Assembly (NCBI GenBank): GCA_903870905.1
Contig: CAIQEU010000023.1
Coordinates: forward strand, 1 to 64,000
DNA length: 64,000 nucleotides
Source of the DNA: an uncultured Actinomycetes bacterium
GTDB lineage: Bacteria > Actinomycetota > Acidimicrobiia > Acidimicrobiales > RAAP-2
Direction: 5' to 3'
Position numbers and translations under genes: made by a program. Below are positions 39,539 through 53,306 of this stretch, in pieces (position 1 is the stretch's first letter; each line of letters starts with the position of its first letter). The notes beneath the pieces are model-generated. The model searched no databases. It was not told the origin of the DNA and saw only the letters and a program-made list of their open reading frames with translations.

Positions 39539-40150
39539 GTGCCGAGGGGCGACGAGTCCGTCCGGACTGGCACACGCGCTGACTTCCTCATCGTTGGTCT
39601 CGGGAATCCGGGCGCCGAGTACGACGGCACGCGCCACAACGTCGGCGCCGATGCCGTCCGCTTGGTCGCTGCTCGATTTGGACAGACCCTCCGGGTGGAG
39701 TCCTCGCTGAGGGCCTCCCACGCCACCGCGATGATCGGGGACGCTCGGTGCCTCTTGGCGGTCCCAACGACCTACATGAACGAGTCCGGAGCTGCCGTGA
39801 AGCCGCTGCTGCGACGTGCCGGAATCGAGACGATGGCGAACCTGATCATCGTCCACGATGAACTCGACCTCGACCCTGGTGTCGTGCGGGTGAAAGTGGG
39901 TGGTGGTCTCGCTGGTCACAACGGACTCCGGTCCATCACCGGGGTGCTCGCAACCCAGGACTACCTCCGTGTGCGCCTCGGCATCGGCAAGCCACCGAGT
40001 AAGGACCACGGAGCGAAGCACGTCTTGACCAAGGTCTCCAAGGCGGCGCGTGTCGACCTCGACCTCGCCACTGCGCTCGCTGCCGATGCGGTCGAAGCGG
40101 TGGTCGCGGCAGGGGTGGAGGCGGCCATGGGGACCTTCAACGCTCGATGA
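39539..40150 (+). CDS. pth: Peptidyl-tRNA hydrolase
   Basis: Recycles tRNA from prematurely released peptidyl-tRNA. It is 203 residues: LIVGLGNPGAEY with Asn23, GTRHNVG with catalytic His33, YMNESG with Asn81, and HDELDL with Asp107. The start is a GTG 13 bases after rplY; the first 14 residues before the fold are extra. The stop overlaps the mfd ATG. Confidence 0.94.
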   Translation: MPRGDESVRTGTRADFLIVGLGNPGAEYDGTRHNVGADAVRLVAARFGQTLRVESSLRASHATAMIGDARCLLAVPTTYMNESGAAVKPLLRRAGIETMANLIIVHDELDLDPGVVRVKVGGGLAGHNGLRSITGVLATQDYLRVRLGIGKPPSKDHGAKHVLTKVSKAARVDLDLATALAADAVEAVVAAGVEAAMGTFNAR

Positions 40151-43100
40151 CGACGCCCCCCATCCTCTCGGCCCCCCTCGGAGCCCTTGCAGAACGGCTC
40201 CTCGACGACGACGACCTCGCCGACACGCTCGCCTCCAACGGTGGACAACTCTGCGCGCCAGCCAGCCTCCACCCGGCCCTGATCGCCGGACTGGCGCGAC
40301 GCGGCAGTGCGTCGCCGATTTTCGTGGTGACCGCAACTGCGCTCGAGGCTGATCGCCTCGGACAGGACCTCCTCGCCTTCTGTGATCAACCGGACCGCTC
40401 ACGGACGGTGGGGGCACCGACCGCACCGGTCGTGGTGCTGCGTCCGTGGGATACCTTGCCGCTCGAGCGAGTCAGTCCTGACGTTGAGACCATGGGTGCC
40501 CGGACCGAAGTTCGGTGGCGCATGGCGAAGCCCGAATTCATGCCGCACATCGTGGTGACCAGCGTTCGTGCAGCGCTGCAGCATCTCGGTGACGACGACG
40601 GCCTCGAGCCCGTCGTGGTCCGCACGGGTGCACAGGTTGACCAGGAGCACCTCGTCGAGCGCTTGGTGGAGCTCGGCTACCGACGTGAGCACCGCACCGA
40701 GGCCAGGGGTGAGTTCTCGGTGCGTGGTGGCATCATCGACCTCTACCCCGCAACGGCAGAGCTGCCCGTTCGCCTCGACCTCTTCGGTGACGAACTCGAG
40801 CGATGCTCCGTCTTCGATCCGACCGACCAGCGGTCTCGCTTCGACGTCGATGAGGTGTGGTGCTTCCCGTGTCGAGAGATCTTGCTGACCGAATCGATCA
40901 GGGAGAACGCCAGAGCGCTCGCCCCGGAGGCGGGACTCGGATCGGGCCTGCTCGAGCGCGTCGGCGATGGGCAGTTCGTCGATGGCATGGAGGGCTGGCT
41001 GCCGTGGCTCGCTCCGCAGCGTCGCCTCGTCACTGACTCCTTGGATCGCGCCTCAGCCGTGGTCCTCATTGAACCCCGCAAGATCCGCGATCGAGCGGTC
41101 GAGCTCAACGACGAAGAAGCGGCCCTCGTGGCCACGTTGCTCGAGACCTGGAATCTGGAAGATCTCGCACCGAGCACGCACGGCCCGGCGCACCTCCACG
41201 CAGATTTCGAGCGCCTGCTCGAGCACTCGTCGGCCTCGCTGCACTCCCTCCTGCCCGTTGCCGACAGTCCGACGACGCCGACGGTCGTCGTGCGCCAACT
41301 CGGCGCCGTCCTCGGCGATGACGAGAAGTTGGCCGATCAGATTGCGACGCTGCTCCGTGGTGGCATCGCCGTCACGGTGGCGGCGTCAACCCCGGCGGCA
41401 CTCGAGCGCCTGACGGCCGTGCTCGTCGGCCAACGTCTCGACCCGCTCGAGCGACCGATCGCCCTCGCCGAGAGCGGTCTCGAAATCGTCCAGGCCACGG
41501 TCAGCCACGGGTTCATCGTCCCGAGTGCCAAGGTCGCCCTCATCACCGAGTCGGATCTGACTGGGCGTCGGGTTGGTCACAAGGCAGCCCGACGACGGCC
41601 GAAGACCGTCGAAGGGTTCTTCGACGACCTCGCCATTGGGAGCTTCGTCGTGCACCGTCAGCACGGGATCGCTCGTTTCAACGGCGTGGTGACGAAGACC
41701 ATGGGAGGTGCCACTCGGGACTACCTCCAACTGGAGTTCAAGGGCAACGACCGCATCTACCTTCCCGTCGAGCAGATCGATGCGGTGACGCCGTACTCAG
41801 GTGGTGAGTCCCCGTCGCTGTCGAAGATGGGTGGCGCCGATTGGACGAAGACGCGCTCGAAGGCCCGTGCAACCGCCGCAGCAGTCGCCGCAGAACTCGT
41901 GGAGCTCTACCGCAACCGCCTCACCGCCACGGGGTTCGCCTTCGACCCGGACACGCCGTGGCAGGCAGAGCTCGAGGCCAGTTTCCCCTTCATCGAAACC
42001 CACGATCAGCTGCGAGCCATTGAGGACGTGAAAGCCGACATGGAGTCTGAGCGTCCCATGGACCGGCTCATCTGCGCCGACGTGGGGTTCGGCAAGACCG
42101 AGATCGCGGTTCGAGCGGTGATGAAGGCCGTCCAGAGCGGCAAGCAGGCAGCGGTCCTCGTCCCGACGACCTTGCTCGCCTCGCAGCACCACCAGACCTT
42201 TACCGAGCGGATGAGTGGTTTTCCCATCACCGTCGCACTCCTCAGTCGGTTCCTCACCGATGCCGCAGCAACAGCGGTGCTGGCCGGTCTCGCCGATGGC
42301 TCCATCGACGTCGTCGTTGGCACCCATCGCCTCTTGTCGCCGTCGCTCACTTTCAAGGACCTCGGCCTCCTCGTGGTCGACGAAGAGCAGCGGTTCGGGG
42401 TCACGCACAAAGAAGCCATCAAGCACCTCGCCAATGGCGTCGACGTCTTGACCCTGTCGGCGAGCCCCATTCCCCGCACGCTTGAGATGGCGTTGTCCGG
42501 TATTCGCGACCTCTCCATGGTGACGACGCCACCAGTCGAGCGCCGCCCCATCCTCACCTACGTCGGCGAGTACGACGAGGCGGCGGTGCGAGAAGCGATC
42601 CGCCGGGAGCTGCTGCGCGAGGGTCAGGTCTTCTACGTCCACAACCGGGTCGCTGACATCGACCAAGTGGCCCGACGAATCCGTGAGATCGTGCCCGAAG
42701 CGAAAGTGGCGGTTGCCCACGGCCAGATGGATGAGGGCACCCTCGAGCAGATCGTTCAAGACTTCTTCGACCGCTCCTTCGACGTGCTCGTGTGCACCAC
42801 CATCGTGGAGTCGGGCATCGACATGCCATCAGTCAACACCTTGATCTGCGATCGAGCAGATCTCTTAGGGCTCGGCCAGCTCCACCAACTCCGTGGACGG
42901 GTTGGCCGTGGCGGGCAGCGGGCCTACGCCTACCTCTTCCACCCCGCCGACAAGGTGCTCTCGGAGAAGGCCTACGAGCGCCTCCGCACGATTGGCGAAC
43001 ACACCGAGCTCGGCTCTGGGTTCAAGATTGCGATGCGTGACCTCGAAATTCGCGGGGCGGGCAACATCCTCGGCGAGCAGCAGTCCGGCGACGTCGCCGC

Positions 43101-43629
43101 CATTGGCTACGACCTCTACGTGCAACTCGTGGCCGAAGCGGTGGCGGCCGCCAAGGGTGAGCCCATCCCGGTCCCAAGCCACGTGAAGATCGACGTGCCC
43201 GATACCGCCAGCCTCCCTGAGGCCTACGTCCCAGCCGAAGATGACCGGCTCGAGGCCTACCGGCGTCTGGCAGCGACGACGACCCACGAGGAAGTCGACG
43301 ACGTGGCTGCAGAGTGGGTCGACCGGTATGGACCGATTCCCGATGCTGCCACCGGACTCCTCGACGTAGCCCACCTCCGAGTTGAAGCGCTCCGCATTGG
43401 TATCGATGAGGTGCTCGTGAGCTCGCAACGCACCGCTCGCGGTCAGACCCGCTCGGCTCGCATTCAGCCCATTGCGCTGCGAGCATCGAGTCAGATGAAG
43501 CTCCGACGGGTCATGCCGGGATCAACGTATCGAGAGACCCAGCAGCAGCTCCTCGTGGACATTCCCCAGGGCGTTCTCGCAGCGCGATTCCTCGCCGATG
43601 CGCTCGCCGAACTCGTCCCCGTTGACTGA
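40147..43629 (+). CDS. mfd: Transcription-repair coupling factor
   Basis: Removes RNA polymerase stalled at DNA damage and recruits the UvrABC system. Full length at 1160 residues: the UvrB-homology region at the N-terminus (VLRPWDTLPLERVSPDVETMGAR), the RNA-polymerase interaction domain near FVVHRQHGIARFNG (about 500), then the RecG-like translocase with Walker A DVGFGKT (Lys650) and DEEQ box Asp745-Gln748, VGRGGQRAYAYL and the C-terminal D7 domain. The start overlaps pth in ATGA. Confidence 0.96.
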   Translation: MTTPPILSAPLGALAERLLDDDDLADTLASNGGQLCAPASLHPALIAGLARRGSASPIFVVTATALEADRLGQDLLAFCDQPDRSRTVGAPTAPVVVLRPWDTLPLERVSPDVETMGARTEVRWRMAKPEFMPHIVVTSVRAALQHLGDDDGLEPVVVRTGAQVDQEHLVERLVELGYRREHRTEARGEFSVRGGIIDLYPATAELPVRLDLFGDELERCSVFDPTDQRSRFDVDEVWCFPCREILLTESIRENARALAPEAGLGSGLLERVGDGQFVDGMEGWLPWLAPQRRLVTDSLDRASAVVLIEPRKIRDRAVELNDEEAALVATLLETWNLEDLAPSTHGPAHLHADFERLLEHSSASLHSLLPVADSPTTPTVVVRQLGAVLGDDEKLADQIATLLRGGIAVTVAASTPAALERLTAVLVGQRLDPLERPIALAESGLEIVQATVSHGFIVPSAKVALITESDLTGRRVGHKAARRRPKTVEGFFDDLAIGSFVVHRQHGIARFNGVVTKTMGGATRDYLQLEFKGNDRIYLPVEQIDAVTPYSGGESPSLSKMGGADWTKTRSKARATAAAVAAELVELYRNRLTATGFAFDPDTPWQAELEASFPFIETHDQLRAIEDVKADMESERPMDRLICADVGFGKTEIAVRAVMKAVQSGKQAAVLVPTTLLASQHHQTFTERMSGFPITVALLSRFLTDAAATAVLAGLADGSIDVVVGTHRLLSPSLTFKDLGLLVVDEEQRFGVTHKEAIKHLANGVDVLTLSASPIPRTLEMALSGIRDLSMVTTPPVERRPILTYVGEYDEAAVREAIRRELLREGQVFYVHNRVADIDQVARRIREIVPEAKVAVAHGQMDEGTLEQIVQDFFDRSFDVLVCTTIVESGIDMPSVNTLICDRADLLGLGQLHQLRGRVGRGGQRAYAYLFHPADKVLSEKAYERLRTIGEHTELGSGFKIAMRDLEIRGAGNILGEQQSGDVAAIGYDLYVQLVAEAVAAAKGEPIPVPSHVKIDVPDTASLPEAYVPAEDDRLEAYRRLAATTTHEEVDDVAAEWVDRYGPIPDAATGLLDVAHLRVEALRIGIDEVLVSSQRTARGQTRSARIQPIALRASSQMKLRRVMPGSTYRETQQQLLVDIPQGVLAARFLADALAELVPVD

Positions 43630-43666: not shown

Positions 43667-44707
43667 GTGAAGAAACTCCTCTCTGTCGTCGTCGTCGCAG
43701 CGCTCGCCATTGGTGGCGTGACCCTCTGCTTCCCCGACTCTCCGTCGAATGCCGCCACGGTAGGGAGCGAACACGTCACCCGTGCCTCGCTCAATGCAGA
43801 CCTCGCAGCGATAGCCGCCAGTCCGGGATTCACCTGCTACGTCAACGCTGCCCTCGTCGAATCGGGGAGTTCGAACACCCGAGGCATCGTCGGTCAGACT
43901 CCGGGGAGCTACAACCCCGTCTACGCCGCCTACTGGCTCACCCAGCGCATGACCGGGATCGCAGCGTGGCAGTACGTGGGTTCGCACCACCTCGAGGTCA
44001 CTCCGAAGGATCTCATTGCAGCGAAGACGTCGTTCGAGACGTCGATTTCCCAAGTGCTCGCCCAGGCGGCCTCAAGCGGCGGCGGGTGTAGCCAGTCAAC
44101 GCAGCAGATCGTCGCCTCCATGCCGGCGTCCTTCATCGCTCGCCAAGTTGGGATCCAGGCTGCCTTCGAGGCGGTCTTGCGCTCGCAAGGCGCCCCGACA
44201 TCGCCCGCAGCAATCCGCTCCTACTTCGACGCCAACCCAGCGCGCTTTGACACCATCTGTCTCTCGGCGATCGTTGCCTCTGCGAGCAGCATCAACCAAG
44301 CCGTCTCCGCACTCCGTCAAGGGATGCCCTTTGCCCAAGCGGTGAAGCTGTTCTCTCAATCTGGATCCAACAGCAACGGTTCGATTGGCTGCTTCGCCCC
44401 GAGCGGTGCGAACTACGCCCAAGTGTCCTCCATTGTCGGGAGCGCCGGCGTCGGCCAGCTCGTGCCCCCGTTCGCAGCCTCGAGCACGCTCTTCGCGTTG
44501 CTGCGGGTGGACGCCAGGATTCCGAACGCGTTTGCGTCGGTGAAGAACCTCGTGGCCACGGTCGCGCGGGCGAGTAGCCAAGCCGCTGCCACCGCCAGTA
44601 TTCGCAACCAGCTCTCAAGCGACACGGTCATCGTTAACTCGAGCTACGGAACCTGGACGAACACCCAGTCCCAGCTCAAGGTCACCCCGCCGACCGTCCC
44701 CGCGTGA
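43667..44707 (+). CDS. Exported PpiC/SurA-like peptidyl-prolyl isomerase
   Basis: A 346-residue secreted protein. The signal (VKKLLSVVVVAALAIGGVTLC) ends before DSPSNA; the cysteine is not in a convincing lipobox. The middle is SurA-like helical, and residues about 180-280 form a weak PpiC domain (AAIRSYFDANPARFD, then ALRQGMPFAQAVKLFSQSG, GSIGCFAPSG and VGQLVPPF). Five cysteines make disulfides likely. It may fold exported proteins. The stop overlaps the mazG start in GTGA. The GTG at 43667 is chosen because the longer frame (43598) lies inside mfd. Confidence 0.8.
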   Translation: MKKLLSVVVVAALAIGGVTLCFPDSPSNAATVGSEHVTRASLNADLAAIAASPGFTCYVNAALVESGSSNTRGIVGQTPGSYNPVYAAYWLTQRMTGIAAWQYVGSHHLEVTPKDLIAAKTSFETSISQVLAQAASSGGGCSQSTQQIVASMPASFIARQVGIQAAFEAVLRSQGAPTSPAAIRSYFDANPARFDTICLSAIVASASSINQAVSALRQGMPFAQAVKLFSQSGSNSNGSIGCFAPSGANYAQVSSIVGSAGVGQLVPPFAASSTLFALLRVDARIPNAFASVKNLVATVARASSQAAATASIRNQLSSDTVIVNSSYGTWTNTQSQLKVTPPTVPA

Positions 44708-46074
44708 GCCACGTCGGCACCGTCACCGTCGTCGGTCTCGGACCGGCAGGACCTGAGTACCTCTCGGCCAAGACCGTCGATCTGCTCGAGTCGGGCTCGG
44801 CCATCTTGCGGACCCACGTCCACCCCGCTGCAGCGCCGTTCTCTGATCTGCCGTCCTACGACGCGTTCTACGAGGACGCCGACGACTTCGAATCGCTCTA
44901 CCGAGCAATCGTCGAAGATGTGGTCGCTCGGGCAGGTGCAGGCCCCGTGGTCTACGCCGTTCCTGGTTCCCCCATGATCGCCGAGCACACGGTCGAACTC
45001 CTCCTCGCTGATCCTCGGGTGGAGGTGCGCGTCGAGCCAGCGCTCAGCTTCTGCGATCTCGCCTGGGCGGCCCTCGGGATCGACCCCGTCGCCAAGGCGG
45101 TGACGGTGTGTGACCTCGTGGATCTCCTCGAACGGCGAGACCTCTCTGGTCCGCTCCTCATCGCCCAGGCCTGGTCGGATCACCTGATCGCTGAACTCAT
45201 GGTGCAACGCGAGTGGTTGTCGCGCTCTGGTCCAGCAACCGTGACCGTGCTCCACCACCTCGGCCTCGACGACGAACTCGTTGCGACGGTGCCCTTCGCC
45301 GATCTGTCGACCGTGGTCGAGGTCGACCACCTCACCAGCCTCTACGTGGAGTCCTGGAACACCCCTGGTTCCGCCTTCGGCGAACTCATGGTGCTCGCCG
45401 AACGCCTTCGAGCAGAGTGCCCGTGGGACCAGGAGCAGACGCACGCGTCCTTGGCCCGTCATCTCTTAGAAGAGGCCTACGAAGCCCTCGATGCCCTCGA
45501 TGCCCTCGCAACGGCGGAGGATCCCATCGCCGCAGCGTCGCACCTCGAAGAGGAGTTGGGTGACGTGCTGTTCCAGGTGTGTTTCCACGCGGTGCTCGGA
45601 GCAGAAGACGGCGACTTCTCGGCCGCCGATATCGCCGATTCAGTGCGGACCAAGTTGATCTCTCGTCACCCCCACGTCTTTGGTGACGTGGTGGCGACGA
45701 CGCCCGATGCTGTGGCGGCGAACTGGGAGACGATCAAGAAGGCCGAGAAGGGTCGGGAGAGCATCACCGAGGGAATTCCGCAGTCCCTTCCGGCGCTCGC
45801 CCTCATGACCAAGTTGCAGCGCAAGGCACGTGCGCTGGGCATGGCCCAGATGAGCATCGACGACGCCGTGGAGTACCTCGCGATCACACTCCGAGTCATC
45901 GCCGCTGCAGATCTCCCCGCGGCACGGACCGAGGACAACGAGGAACTCCTCGGGACCATGCTCGCCGCGATCTGTCAGATTGCGGTGTCCTGCGGTGCAG
46001 ACCTCGAAGCAGCGCTCCGGTTGGCGGCTGGACAACAGCGTGCCGCCATCATCGCCTTCGAGCAACGCGCTTGA
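44704..46074 (+). CDS. mazG: YabN-type MazG nucleotide pyrophosphohydrolase with methylase-fold domain
   Basis: A two-domain 456-residue protein. Residues 1-210 have the tetrapyrrole-methylase fold (VTVVGLGPAGPEYLSAKTV, VYAVPGSPMIAEHTVELL). The MazG part follows with ECPWDQEQTHASLARHLLEEAYEALDAL and HLEEELGDVLFQVCFHA, the EExxE/ExxD metal-binding pattern; a second helical MazG-like half follows (QSLPALALMTKLQRKARALG). It probably hydrolyses abnormal NTPs. It precedes eno with its own intervening hairpin. Confidence 0.9.
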   Translation: MSHVGTVTVVGLGPAGPEYLSAKTVDLLESGSAILRTHVHPAAAPFSDLPSYDAFYEDADDFESLYRAIVEDVVARAGAGPVVYAVPGSPMIAEHTVELLLADPRVEVRVEPALSFCDLAWAALGIDPVAKAVTVCDLVDLLERRDLSGPLLIAQAWSDHLIAELMVQREWLSRSGPATVTVLHHLGLDDELVATVPFADLSTVVEVDHLTSLYVESWNTPGSAFGELMVLAERLRAECPWDQEQTHASLARHLLEEAYEALDALDALATAEDPIAAASHLEEELGDVLFQVCFHAVLGAEDGDFSAADIADSVRTKLISRHPHVFGDVVATTPDAVAANWETIKKAEKGRESITEGIPQSLPALALMTKLQRKARALGMAQMSIDDAVEYLAITLRVIAAADLPAARTEDNEELLGTMLAAICQIAVSCGADLEAALRLAAGQQRAAIIAFEQRA

Positions 46075-51043: not shown

Positions 51044-52192
51044 TTAGGGGCGAGCGGCGCCGATGAGGCCGAAGAACCACACCGGCGAGTAGGACACCGT
51101 CGCTCCGGTATGGGGTGCCTGAATGACCGTCGGCACACCGTTGATCGTCCCGGCGTACATCACGACGTGGTCGACTTGGAAGTCGCCGTCGAGGTTGAAG
51201 TAGAAGAGCAGATCTCCTGGCTCGAGTTTCTGCACCGAGACGTGGGGGAGTGCTTGCCACTGTGCGGCAGCGACCCGAGGGATCGAAATCCCTGCTTGGC
51301 CCCACGCCCATTGGGTGAGCCCCGAGCAGTCGAACCCCTGGCCAGGGGTCTCGCCCCCCCAGACGTAGGGGACACCGAGTTGACTCTGTGCTGCGTGGAG
51401 GGCAGTGCCACCTTGACCACTCGGCGAGGAGGAGCCACCAACTGAGGTGTAGGAGCCTGAACCGCCGCCTCCACCGGTGGGTGTGGATCCTCCAGCCGCA
51501 GCCTTGGCAGCAGCTGCTGCGCGTGCTTGGGCAATCTGCTCGGCCTGCACGGCGAGCGCCGTTCGCAGCCGAGTGCTCACCGTGGCGTAGATGGCGTTTG
51601 CTGCGGCCTCAGCTTGGGCGTTTTGGACGGCGAGGTCTTTGATCGCTGCCGCGTTGGCCAGCGCTGCGGTCCGTTCGGTCGTCAAAGCGGCGAGGTTTGC
51701 CGTGAGCTGATCCTTACTCGCGCTGTAGGCAGCGGACTCGGCGGCGAGATCGCCAGCTGCGGTGATCTCGTAGGTGCGTCGTACCTCTGTTGCGAGGGAA
51801 TTTCCCGAGAACGCCGCGGTCGGTCCGTTGTCACCTTGACCGAGGACGTAGGCGTTGACGGCATCGGTGACGAGTTTGGCCTTGTCGGCTGCCACTTCGA
51901 GCGTCAACACGTTGACTTTGGCCGTGGTCGCTTTGATGCTCTTCTTCAGCTCCTGGGCTGCACCGATGGCGGTGTCGTACCGATTCGACAGTCGTTCGGA
52001 TCGTTGCAGCAAGGCGGCGAGCTGCTCTGCGGCGACTCGTCGTTCGTGCTGGAGGTTGGCAATTTGGCCAGGGGTGACCTTGGGTGCTGCCCCCGCTACC
52101 TGCCCTGCTCCCGCGAGCAGTGCGCACGCAATCACCACCGAGAGTGCTCGCCGGGAATGGCCGAACCACGCAGTGCGAGACGAGGTGATCAC
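51044..52192 (-). CDS. Secreted NlpC/P60 peptidoglycan endopeptidase
   Basis: A 382-residue RipA/Cwp-type cell-wall hydrolase. The signal (RRALSVVIACALLAGAGQVAG) ends near residue 35. A long coiled coil follows (residues 40-225, with Ala- and Gln-rich heptads), then a Gly/Ser linker and the NlpC/P60 domain: Cys289 in GFDCSGL, His342 in DHVVMYAG and His361 in QAPHTG form the triad. It should cut D-Glu-diaminopimelate bonds in the wall. The GTG follows AAGGAG. The coiled coil resembles domains that control such enzymes during division. Confidence 0.9.
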   Translation of the reverse strand: MITSSRTAWFGHSRRALSVVIACALLAGAGQVAGAAPKVTPGQIANLQHERRVAAEQLAALLQRSERLSNRYDTAIGAAQELKKSIKATTAKVNVLTLEVAADKAKLVTDAVNAYVLGQGDNGPTAAFSGNSLATEVRRTYEITAAGDLAAESAAYSASKDQLTANLAALTTERTAALANAAAIKDLAVQNAQAEAAANAIYATVSTRLRTALAVQAEQIAQARAAAAAKAAAGGSTPTGGGGGSGSYTSVGGSSSPSGQGGTALHAAQSQLGVPYVWGGETPGQGFDCSGLTQWAWGQAGISIPRVAAAQWQALPHVSVQKLEPGDLLFYFNLDGDFQVDHVVMYAGTINGVPTVIQAPHTGATVSYSPVWFFGLIGAARP

Positions 52193-52264: not shown

Positions 52265-52340
52265 GGGGACGTAGCCCAACGGCAGAGGCAGGGCGCTTAA
52301 ACCGCCTTCAGTGAGGGTTCGAATCCCTCCGTCCCCACCA
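52265..52340 (+). tRNA. Class I tRNA with UAA anticodon (nominal tRNA-Leu)
   Basis: A 76-nt cloverleaf with CCA encoded: acceptor GGGGACG/CGTCCCC, D stem GCC/GGC, anticodon stem GGGCG/CGCCT around CTTAAAC (anticodon TAA, U33, A37), variable loop TCAGT of five bases, T arm GAGGG-TTCGAAT-CCCTC, discriminator A. The anticodon reads UUA (Leu). Bacterial tRNA-Leu normally has a long class II variable arm, absent here, so its charging is open to question. tRNA-Gln in this window has no encoded CCA. Confidence 0.85.
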
Positions 52341-52523: not shown

Positions 52524-53306
52524 ATGACTCCTGCACCCGAGATACCTGAAGCTCCCCGCCACACTGGCGCCGTCACCGTGTCCGTCTTCGGACCGGTCAC
52601 CGTCGACGGTGCCGCTCGACCGTTCACGCGGGCGTTCGCGCTCGACCTCGTGACCTACCTCGTGCTCCACCCGCACGGAGCGGGGACGGATCAGTGGGTC
52701 ACTGCGCTGTGGCCCGATCGGGTGATGGCACCCGCCACCATCCACTCCACCTCGTCGGCTGCCCGACGAGCCCTTGGAACGAGCACCGATGGACGCGACC
52801 TCCTCCCGCATGGACACGCTCGCCTGCGCATGAGTGATGCGGTGCGGTGTGATGTGGATCTCGTGACCGAACTCCTCAACGCGGATCGGTTGGCCCGCCG
52901 GGCGGCAATGGCCGTGCTCCGCGGGAGGCCGTTCGACGGGCTCCGTCGCTACGAGTGGGTGATCAGTGAGGGCCACCTCGCCCGTGCTGAATCGGTGGCA
53001 TCGAGGCTCACGGCCTCGGTGGCCAGCGATTTCTTGAGCGACGGCGATGCCGTCGGCGCCCAAACTGCGCTTCGTCGAGGGCTCGCGGTCACACCCTACG
53101 ACGAAGGACTCTGGAGACTGCTCCTCGACGCCACCTACGCCACCGGCTCTGCGTCTGGTCTCGACCAGGTCATCGCCGAACTCGCAGTCGTGCTCGGCGC
53201 CTCCCCAGTCCTCCAGCGACTCTCGCCGGCGCTCGACCTCGCCGACCTCGTCCACCCAGCAACCTGGGACCACTACGTCGATCTCCGAAAGCGCGGTCGT
53301 TCGTAA
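52524..53306 (+). CDS. Stand-alone winged-helix/BTAD regulator
   Basis: A 260-residue SARP/EmbR-like protein. Residues 12-95 form the OmpR-type DNA-binding domain (VTVSVFGPVTVDGAARPFTRAFALDLVTYLVLHP, DQWVTALWPDRVMAPATIHSTSSAARRALG). The rest is the bacterial transcriptional activator (BTAD) TPR-like domain (ESVASRLTASVASDFLSDGDAVGAQTALRRGLAVTPYDEGLWRLL). There is no ATPase, FHA or LysM part, so it is the minimal form. The following gene, with its own -10, is a membrane-anchored protein of unknown function. Confidence 0.82.
   Translation: MTPAPEIPEAPRHTGAVTVSVFGPVTVDGAARPFTRAFALDLVTYLVLHPHGAGTDQWVTALWPDRVMAPATIHSTSSAARRALGTSTDGRDLLPHGHARLRMSDAVRCDVDLVTELLNADRLARRAAMAVLRGRPFDGLRRYEWVISEGHLARAESVASRLTASVASDFLSDGDAVGAQTALRRGLAVTPYDEGLWRLLLDATYATGSASGLDQVIAELAVVLGASPVLQRLSPALDLADLVHPATWDHYVDLRKRGRS

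Follow-up and report, generated by a model that had tools for sequence, protein, structure and literature searches.

The gene at positions 52265..52340 (+) of the window, that is, the whole 64,000-nucleotide stretch of DNA that was analysed, is a class I tRNA-Leu(UAA) gene of 76 nt with an encoded CCA. By the textbook rule, tRNA-Leu of bacteria is a class II tRNA with a long variable arm. The gene product is almost certainly an ordinary housekeeping tRNA, which would be charged by leucyl-tRNA synthetase (LeuRS), replace the class II tRNA-Leu(UAA) in the family and read the rare codon UUA as leucine. The assignment draws on ARAGORN, Rfam, conservation in relatives and the stem pairs kept among them.

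ARAGORN called 52265-52340 (+) as tRNA-Leu(taa), and the Rfam tRNA profile matched it with 58.9 bits (gathering score 29; E = 8.5e-12 in the 1.5-kb stretch searched). The acceptor stem is GGGGACG/CGTCCCC and the T arm is GAGGG-TTCGAAT-CCCTC; the partition between acceptor and T stems is 7/5 both in Rfam and in the alignment of relatives. The anticodon TAA, which reads UUA, is located at 52298..52300 (ARAGORN position 34) within the anticodon loop CTTAAAC (52296-52302), all on the + strand. The variable loop TCAGT (52308..52312, +) has 5 nt, while at least 10 nt would be expected of a class II arm. The first-pass annotation, made from the letters alone, had described a sound cloverleaf with a UAA anticodon, an encoded CCA and a five-base variable loop, and this description was correct. 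MFE folding alone did not reproduce the D and anticodon arms of the cloverleaf, to which we give no weight against the comparative evidence. No sigma-70-type promoter match was found upstream of the gene, which says little for an actinobacterium of 64% GC. The neighbouring genes encode an NlpC/P60 protein (51044-52192, -) and a BTAD-domain (SARP-like) regulator (52524-53306, +).

What specifies leucine has been reviewed for several systems. In E. coli the elements are A73, the Levitt pair A15-U48, G18G19 and A20a, and A14 is important for tRNA-Leu of A. aeolicus and of human mitochondria (PMC9976931). Leucylation does not correlate with the sequence or folding of the long arm, and E. coli tRNA-Leu variants without the arm stay active (PMC9976931). 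All of these residues are present in the tRNA at 52265-52340. The D arm GCCCAACGGCAGAGGC (52274..52289, +) is of leucine type, with a 3-bp stem plus C13*A22, and shares A15 and CAG at positions 20/20a/20b with the four class II tRNA-Leu of the same genome. It carries A14 at 52278, A15 at 52279, G18G19 at 52281-52282 and A20a at 52284 (+). T48 at 52312 (+) is able to form the Levitt pair with A15, and the discriminator A73, a major leucine determinant, at 52337 is followed by the encoded CCA at 52338-52340 (52337..52340, +). Of 42 distinct tRNAs in the genome, only five, all of them leucine tRNAs, have the full set including A73: the four of class II and the class I UAA tRNA. Core identity of the latter to other short leucine tRNAs reaches 1.00 with a mean of 0.75, versus a mean of 0.61 to class II tRNA-Leu.

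The assembly of this genome consists of 81 contigs and 2.1 Mb, and is 97.7% complete. Its class II tRNAs are those for Leu (CAA, CAG, UAG and GAG), Ser (UGA, GGA, CGA and GCU) and Tyr, and it encodes one full-length LeuRS of 826 aa. We sought overlooked class II UAA genes with anticodon-specific patterns. The first-pass annotation had named as a check whether a normal class II tRNA-Leu(UAA) exists beside the class I copy; none was detected in the 81 contigs, either with exact patterns or with two mismatches allowed, and the same patterns had no match in G000, G013 or G029. Because no class II tRNA-Leu(UAA) was found, the class I gene is apparently the sole UUA reader of the genome. Two candidates for the missing gene were rejected: contig C34 ends in a truncated tRNA, which is tRNA-Thr(UGU), and a fragment on contig C2 is the 3' half of a tRNA-Arg(ACG). 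The latter fragment (G000:C2:33578-33606, L073) has no 5' half and bears a CCA end, and similar matches occur in G001, G002, G003 and G004; it resembles an attachment site left behind by an integrated element.

It is very unlikely that the class I tRNA has only a supplementary role, with most UUA codons read by a class II tRNA-Leu(UAA) that escaped detection. The fragmented assembly could hide such a gene in a gap, and a few other expected tRNAs, such as Ala UGC, Gly CCC and Arg CCU, were not seen in it. A gap of this kind would concern this genome alone, whereas all 11 family genomes in our sample of the phylum (11/11, at least 95% complete) have a class I match and no class II UAA match; the empty two-mismatch searches also argue against it.

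The first-pass annotation offered two options, that LeuRS accepts a class I body or that the tRNA is not charged with leucine, and saw in the latter a possible recoding element. Such an element would be a tRNA of another class I isotype whose anticodon had become UAA, so that UUA would be translated as an amino acid other than leucine. In favour of this possibility are the class I build itself and one Met tRNA, the nearest body outside leucine, at a core identity of 0.78. Against it, the identity elements match leucine and no other isotype in the genome, and both the use of UUA and the distribution of the body point to leucine as well. To examine codon use, LeuRS, Mfd and RpoB were aligned, each from 30 family genomes. 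UUA fell into leucine-majority columns in 60 of 71 cases (85%), like other leucine codons (TTG 868/967, 90%; CTA 67/76, 88%; CTC 2568/3036, 85%), and the remaining UUA codons were mostly in F or V columns; the alignments gave no sign that UUA stands for a non-standard amino acid. The UUA codons that had been reported in mazG and mfd are real, one TTA in each: codon 255 of the ORF at 44704-46074, which is MazG by Pfam, and codon 907 of mfd (40147-43629), which is in an otherwise all-leucine column. Judging from these alignments, UUA means leucine in the family, with no change of the genetic code.

The distribution of the body was determined with the pattern GCCCAAN{1,3}GGYAGAGGCN{26,28}GTTCRANYC, in which the D arm and the class I spacing are fixed and the anticodon is free. 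In named GTDB genomes at least 119 stretches match this pattern, and among the matches listed all of about 83 matching tRNAs in 80 named loci carry leucine anticodons according to ARAGORN, mostly UAA, then CAA and UAG, with few CAG and GAG. In plasmids, the search for class I tRNA-Leu gave one weak match only. From all loci collected, we obtained 155 distinct short-variable tRNA-Leu (UAA 113, CAA 21, UAG 12, CAG 5, GAG 3 and AAG 1). A73 and U48 are present in 155/155 of them; the pattern preselects A14, A15 and A20a, which leaves no more than the anticodon, A73 and, in part, U48 as independent evidence. The tRNA at 52265-52340 belongs to this group, as it has the body GCCCAA..GGYAGAGGC, a variable loop within 4-6 nt and a leucine anticodon. 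Among the matches listed and the 155 distinct tRNAs, the body was never found with a non-leucine anticodon, and together with the UUA columns this makes a recoding tRNA extremely improbable. The option that LeuRS accepts the class I body is supported by intact identity elements, UUA in leucine columns and the same body under other leucine anticodons; the option of a tRNA not charged with leucine, and with it the proposed recoding element, is not supported.

Several of the loci hold other tRNAs of note. At L122:681-2371 (Asanoa iriomotensis), 17 predicted tRNAs are clustered, with odd D arms and two lacking a clear anticodon, and two short-variable tRNA-Leu are included. A 6.8-kb contig of an Elusimicrobia MAG (L135) and a Cylindrospermum locus (L187) have arrays with several short-variable tRNA-Leu of differing anticodons, some without A20a; these are possibly phage or mobile arrays. 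In an Actinomycetes MAG (L183:4844-5137), two adjacent class I tRNA-Leu have the anticodons GAG and CAG, and therefore the class I body serves CUN codons too.

The alignment of relatives, which the first-pass annotation had asked for, bore out the reality of the tRNA. Of the 60 genomes compared from the host's genus or family, 56 have it at 81-99% identity. Base pairing in the acceptor, anticodon and T stems is conserved in 900 of 901 cases among 53 distinct relatives, and several stem pairs show compensatory, two-sided changes. Conservation in the family and covariation rule out a chance cloverleaf or a pseudogene at 52265-52340. In 20 relatives the gene is about 8-44 kb from mfd on the same contig, and therefore its location is stably inherited. 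Near-identical tRNAs were also found in named Acidimicrobiia loci (L148), from which the host probably belongs to this class. The four genomes without the class I gene (G003, G014, G019 and G059; 84-95% complete) yielded no class II substitute either. In G014 (93% complete) and G019 (95%), a UAA tRNA of neither class was found at the sensitivity used, which may be due to assembly gaps or to loss of the UUA reader. Although the same body occurs in phages and in a mycobacterial tRNA cluster (PMC6582537), a non-functional relic or a passenger of a mobile element is hardly conceivable for a gene with family-wide conservation, compensated stems, a constant position close to mfd in 20 relatives and no other UUA reader found in its genome.

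Class I and class II UAA patterns were then compared over 298 genomes of the phylum, some of which match neither, the patterns not being exhaustive. Class I UAA matches were obtained in 71 genomes and class II UAA matches in 132. Both patterns matched in eight genomes, and in all eight (8/8) the class I match is no tRNA; two further odd class I matches are also no tRNA. A class II UAA match is absent from all of the approximately 61 class I genomes that remain, and ten other class I matches that were checked are all class I tRNA-Leu(UAA) (10/10). Thus, the two classes of tRNA-Leu(UAA) are mutually exclusive over the 298 genomes. Most other families of the same order have the class II UAA tRNA, and one family (f58) has both. 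One genome (G066) combines a class I CAA tRNA with a class II UAA match, which means that isoacceptors within a single genome need not be of the same class. Many actinobacteria, as well as phages and some other bacteria, depart from the first-pass annotation's premise of a class II structure for bacterial leucine tRNAs. By the evidence of these patterns, the short form replaces the usual tRNA-Leu(UAA) in many actinobacteria.

Class I tRNA-Leu with UAA, CAA or UAG anticodons (loci L114-L193) are found in Actinomycetota such as Nocardia, Mycobacterium, Gordonia, Corynebacterium, Microbacterium, Nocardioides and Amycolatopsis. They share with the present tRNA the D arm GCCCAA..GGCAGAGGC, a 5-nt variable loop, A15/U48, A73 and a leucine anticodon, but differ in the sequences of the acceptor and anticodon stems, and many of them start with GCCCC. 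A short-variable-loop tRNA-Leu(TAG) in a tRNA cluster of M. mucogenicum/M. phocaicum has been mentioned in passing (PMC6582537). It likewise lacks the long arm, but belongs to an accessory cluster beside a normal class II isoacceptor (PMC6582537), whereas in the present genome no UAA gene other than the class I copy was found. In M. tuberculosis, a long loop is reported for tRNA-Leu-2, -3 and -5, the short form of the others following by implication only (PMC11541572). Among phages, Streptomyces phage Wakanda has a class I gene with a CAA anticodon, and Erwinia phage Hena2 has two with UAA and AAG, all annotated as tRNA-Leu; they have the same body and leucine anticodons, but are parts of phage tRNA arrays and not a sole housekeeping copy. 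Class II tRNA-Leu(UAA), including bldA of Streptomyces, has the same anticodon, A73, leucine-type D loop and role as UUA reader, but has a long variable arm and the D stem GYGG../..ACRC instead of GCCC../..AGGC. Mammalian mitochondrial tRNA-Leu(UUR) lacks a long arm and is charged with leucine via A73 and A14 (PMC9976931); unlike the present tRNA, it is organellar, with degenerate stems and its own LeuRS. Allo-tRNAs also have unusual bodies, some with leucine anticodons, but their partition is 8/4 or 9/3 and they insert Ser or Ala (PMC7609411), whereas the tRNA here has the 7/5 partition and leucine identity. In the freely accessible literature searched, we found no account of the class I structure as a regular one for tRNA-Leu in Actinomycetota. 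The class I tRNA-Leu(UAA) belongs to a known but little-discussed kind, and what is surprising is that a single isoacceptor has switched class.

The single bacterial-type LeuRS would most likely leucylate the class I tRNA via A73 and the D/T-loop hinge (A14, A15-U48, G18G19 and A20a), and the long variable arm would not be needed for this step. The charged tRNA would stand in for the class II tRNA-Leu(UAA) in the family and decode UUA as leucine. We infer that the gene is expressed and leucylated, and that it shares common descent with the others from one class I tRNA-Leu lineage spread partly by phages. The class switch may have come about through transfer by phages. A broader idea, which we hold tentatively and with slightly less than even confidence, is that one class I lineage, partly carried by phages or mobile arrays, repeatedly displaced class II tRNA-Leu(UAA) in Actinomycetota, so that one isoacceptor switched class and the others did not, with LeuRS handling both.

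The class II rule for bacterial tRNA-Leu fails in a large bacterial group, and the long arm appears to be dispensable in nature, beyond engineered E. coli variants. This matters for the annotation of tRNAs and for tRNA-seq tools that class leucine tRNAs as type II (as in PMC6297222). It also bears on UUA-linked regulation: Streptomyces-like genomes have a class II UUA reader of the bldA type, whereas many other actinobacteria have one with the class I body.
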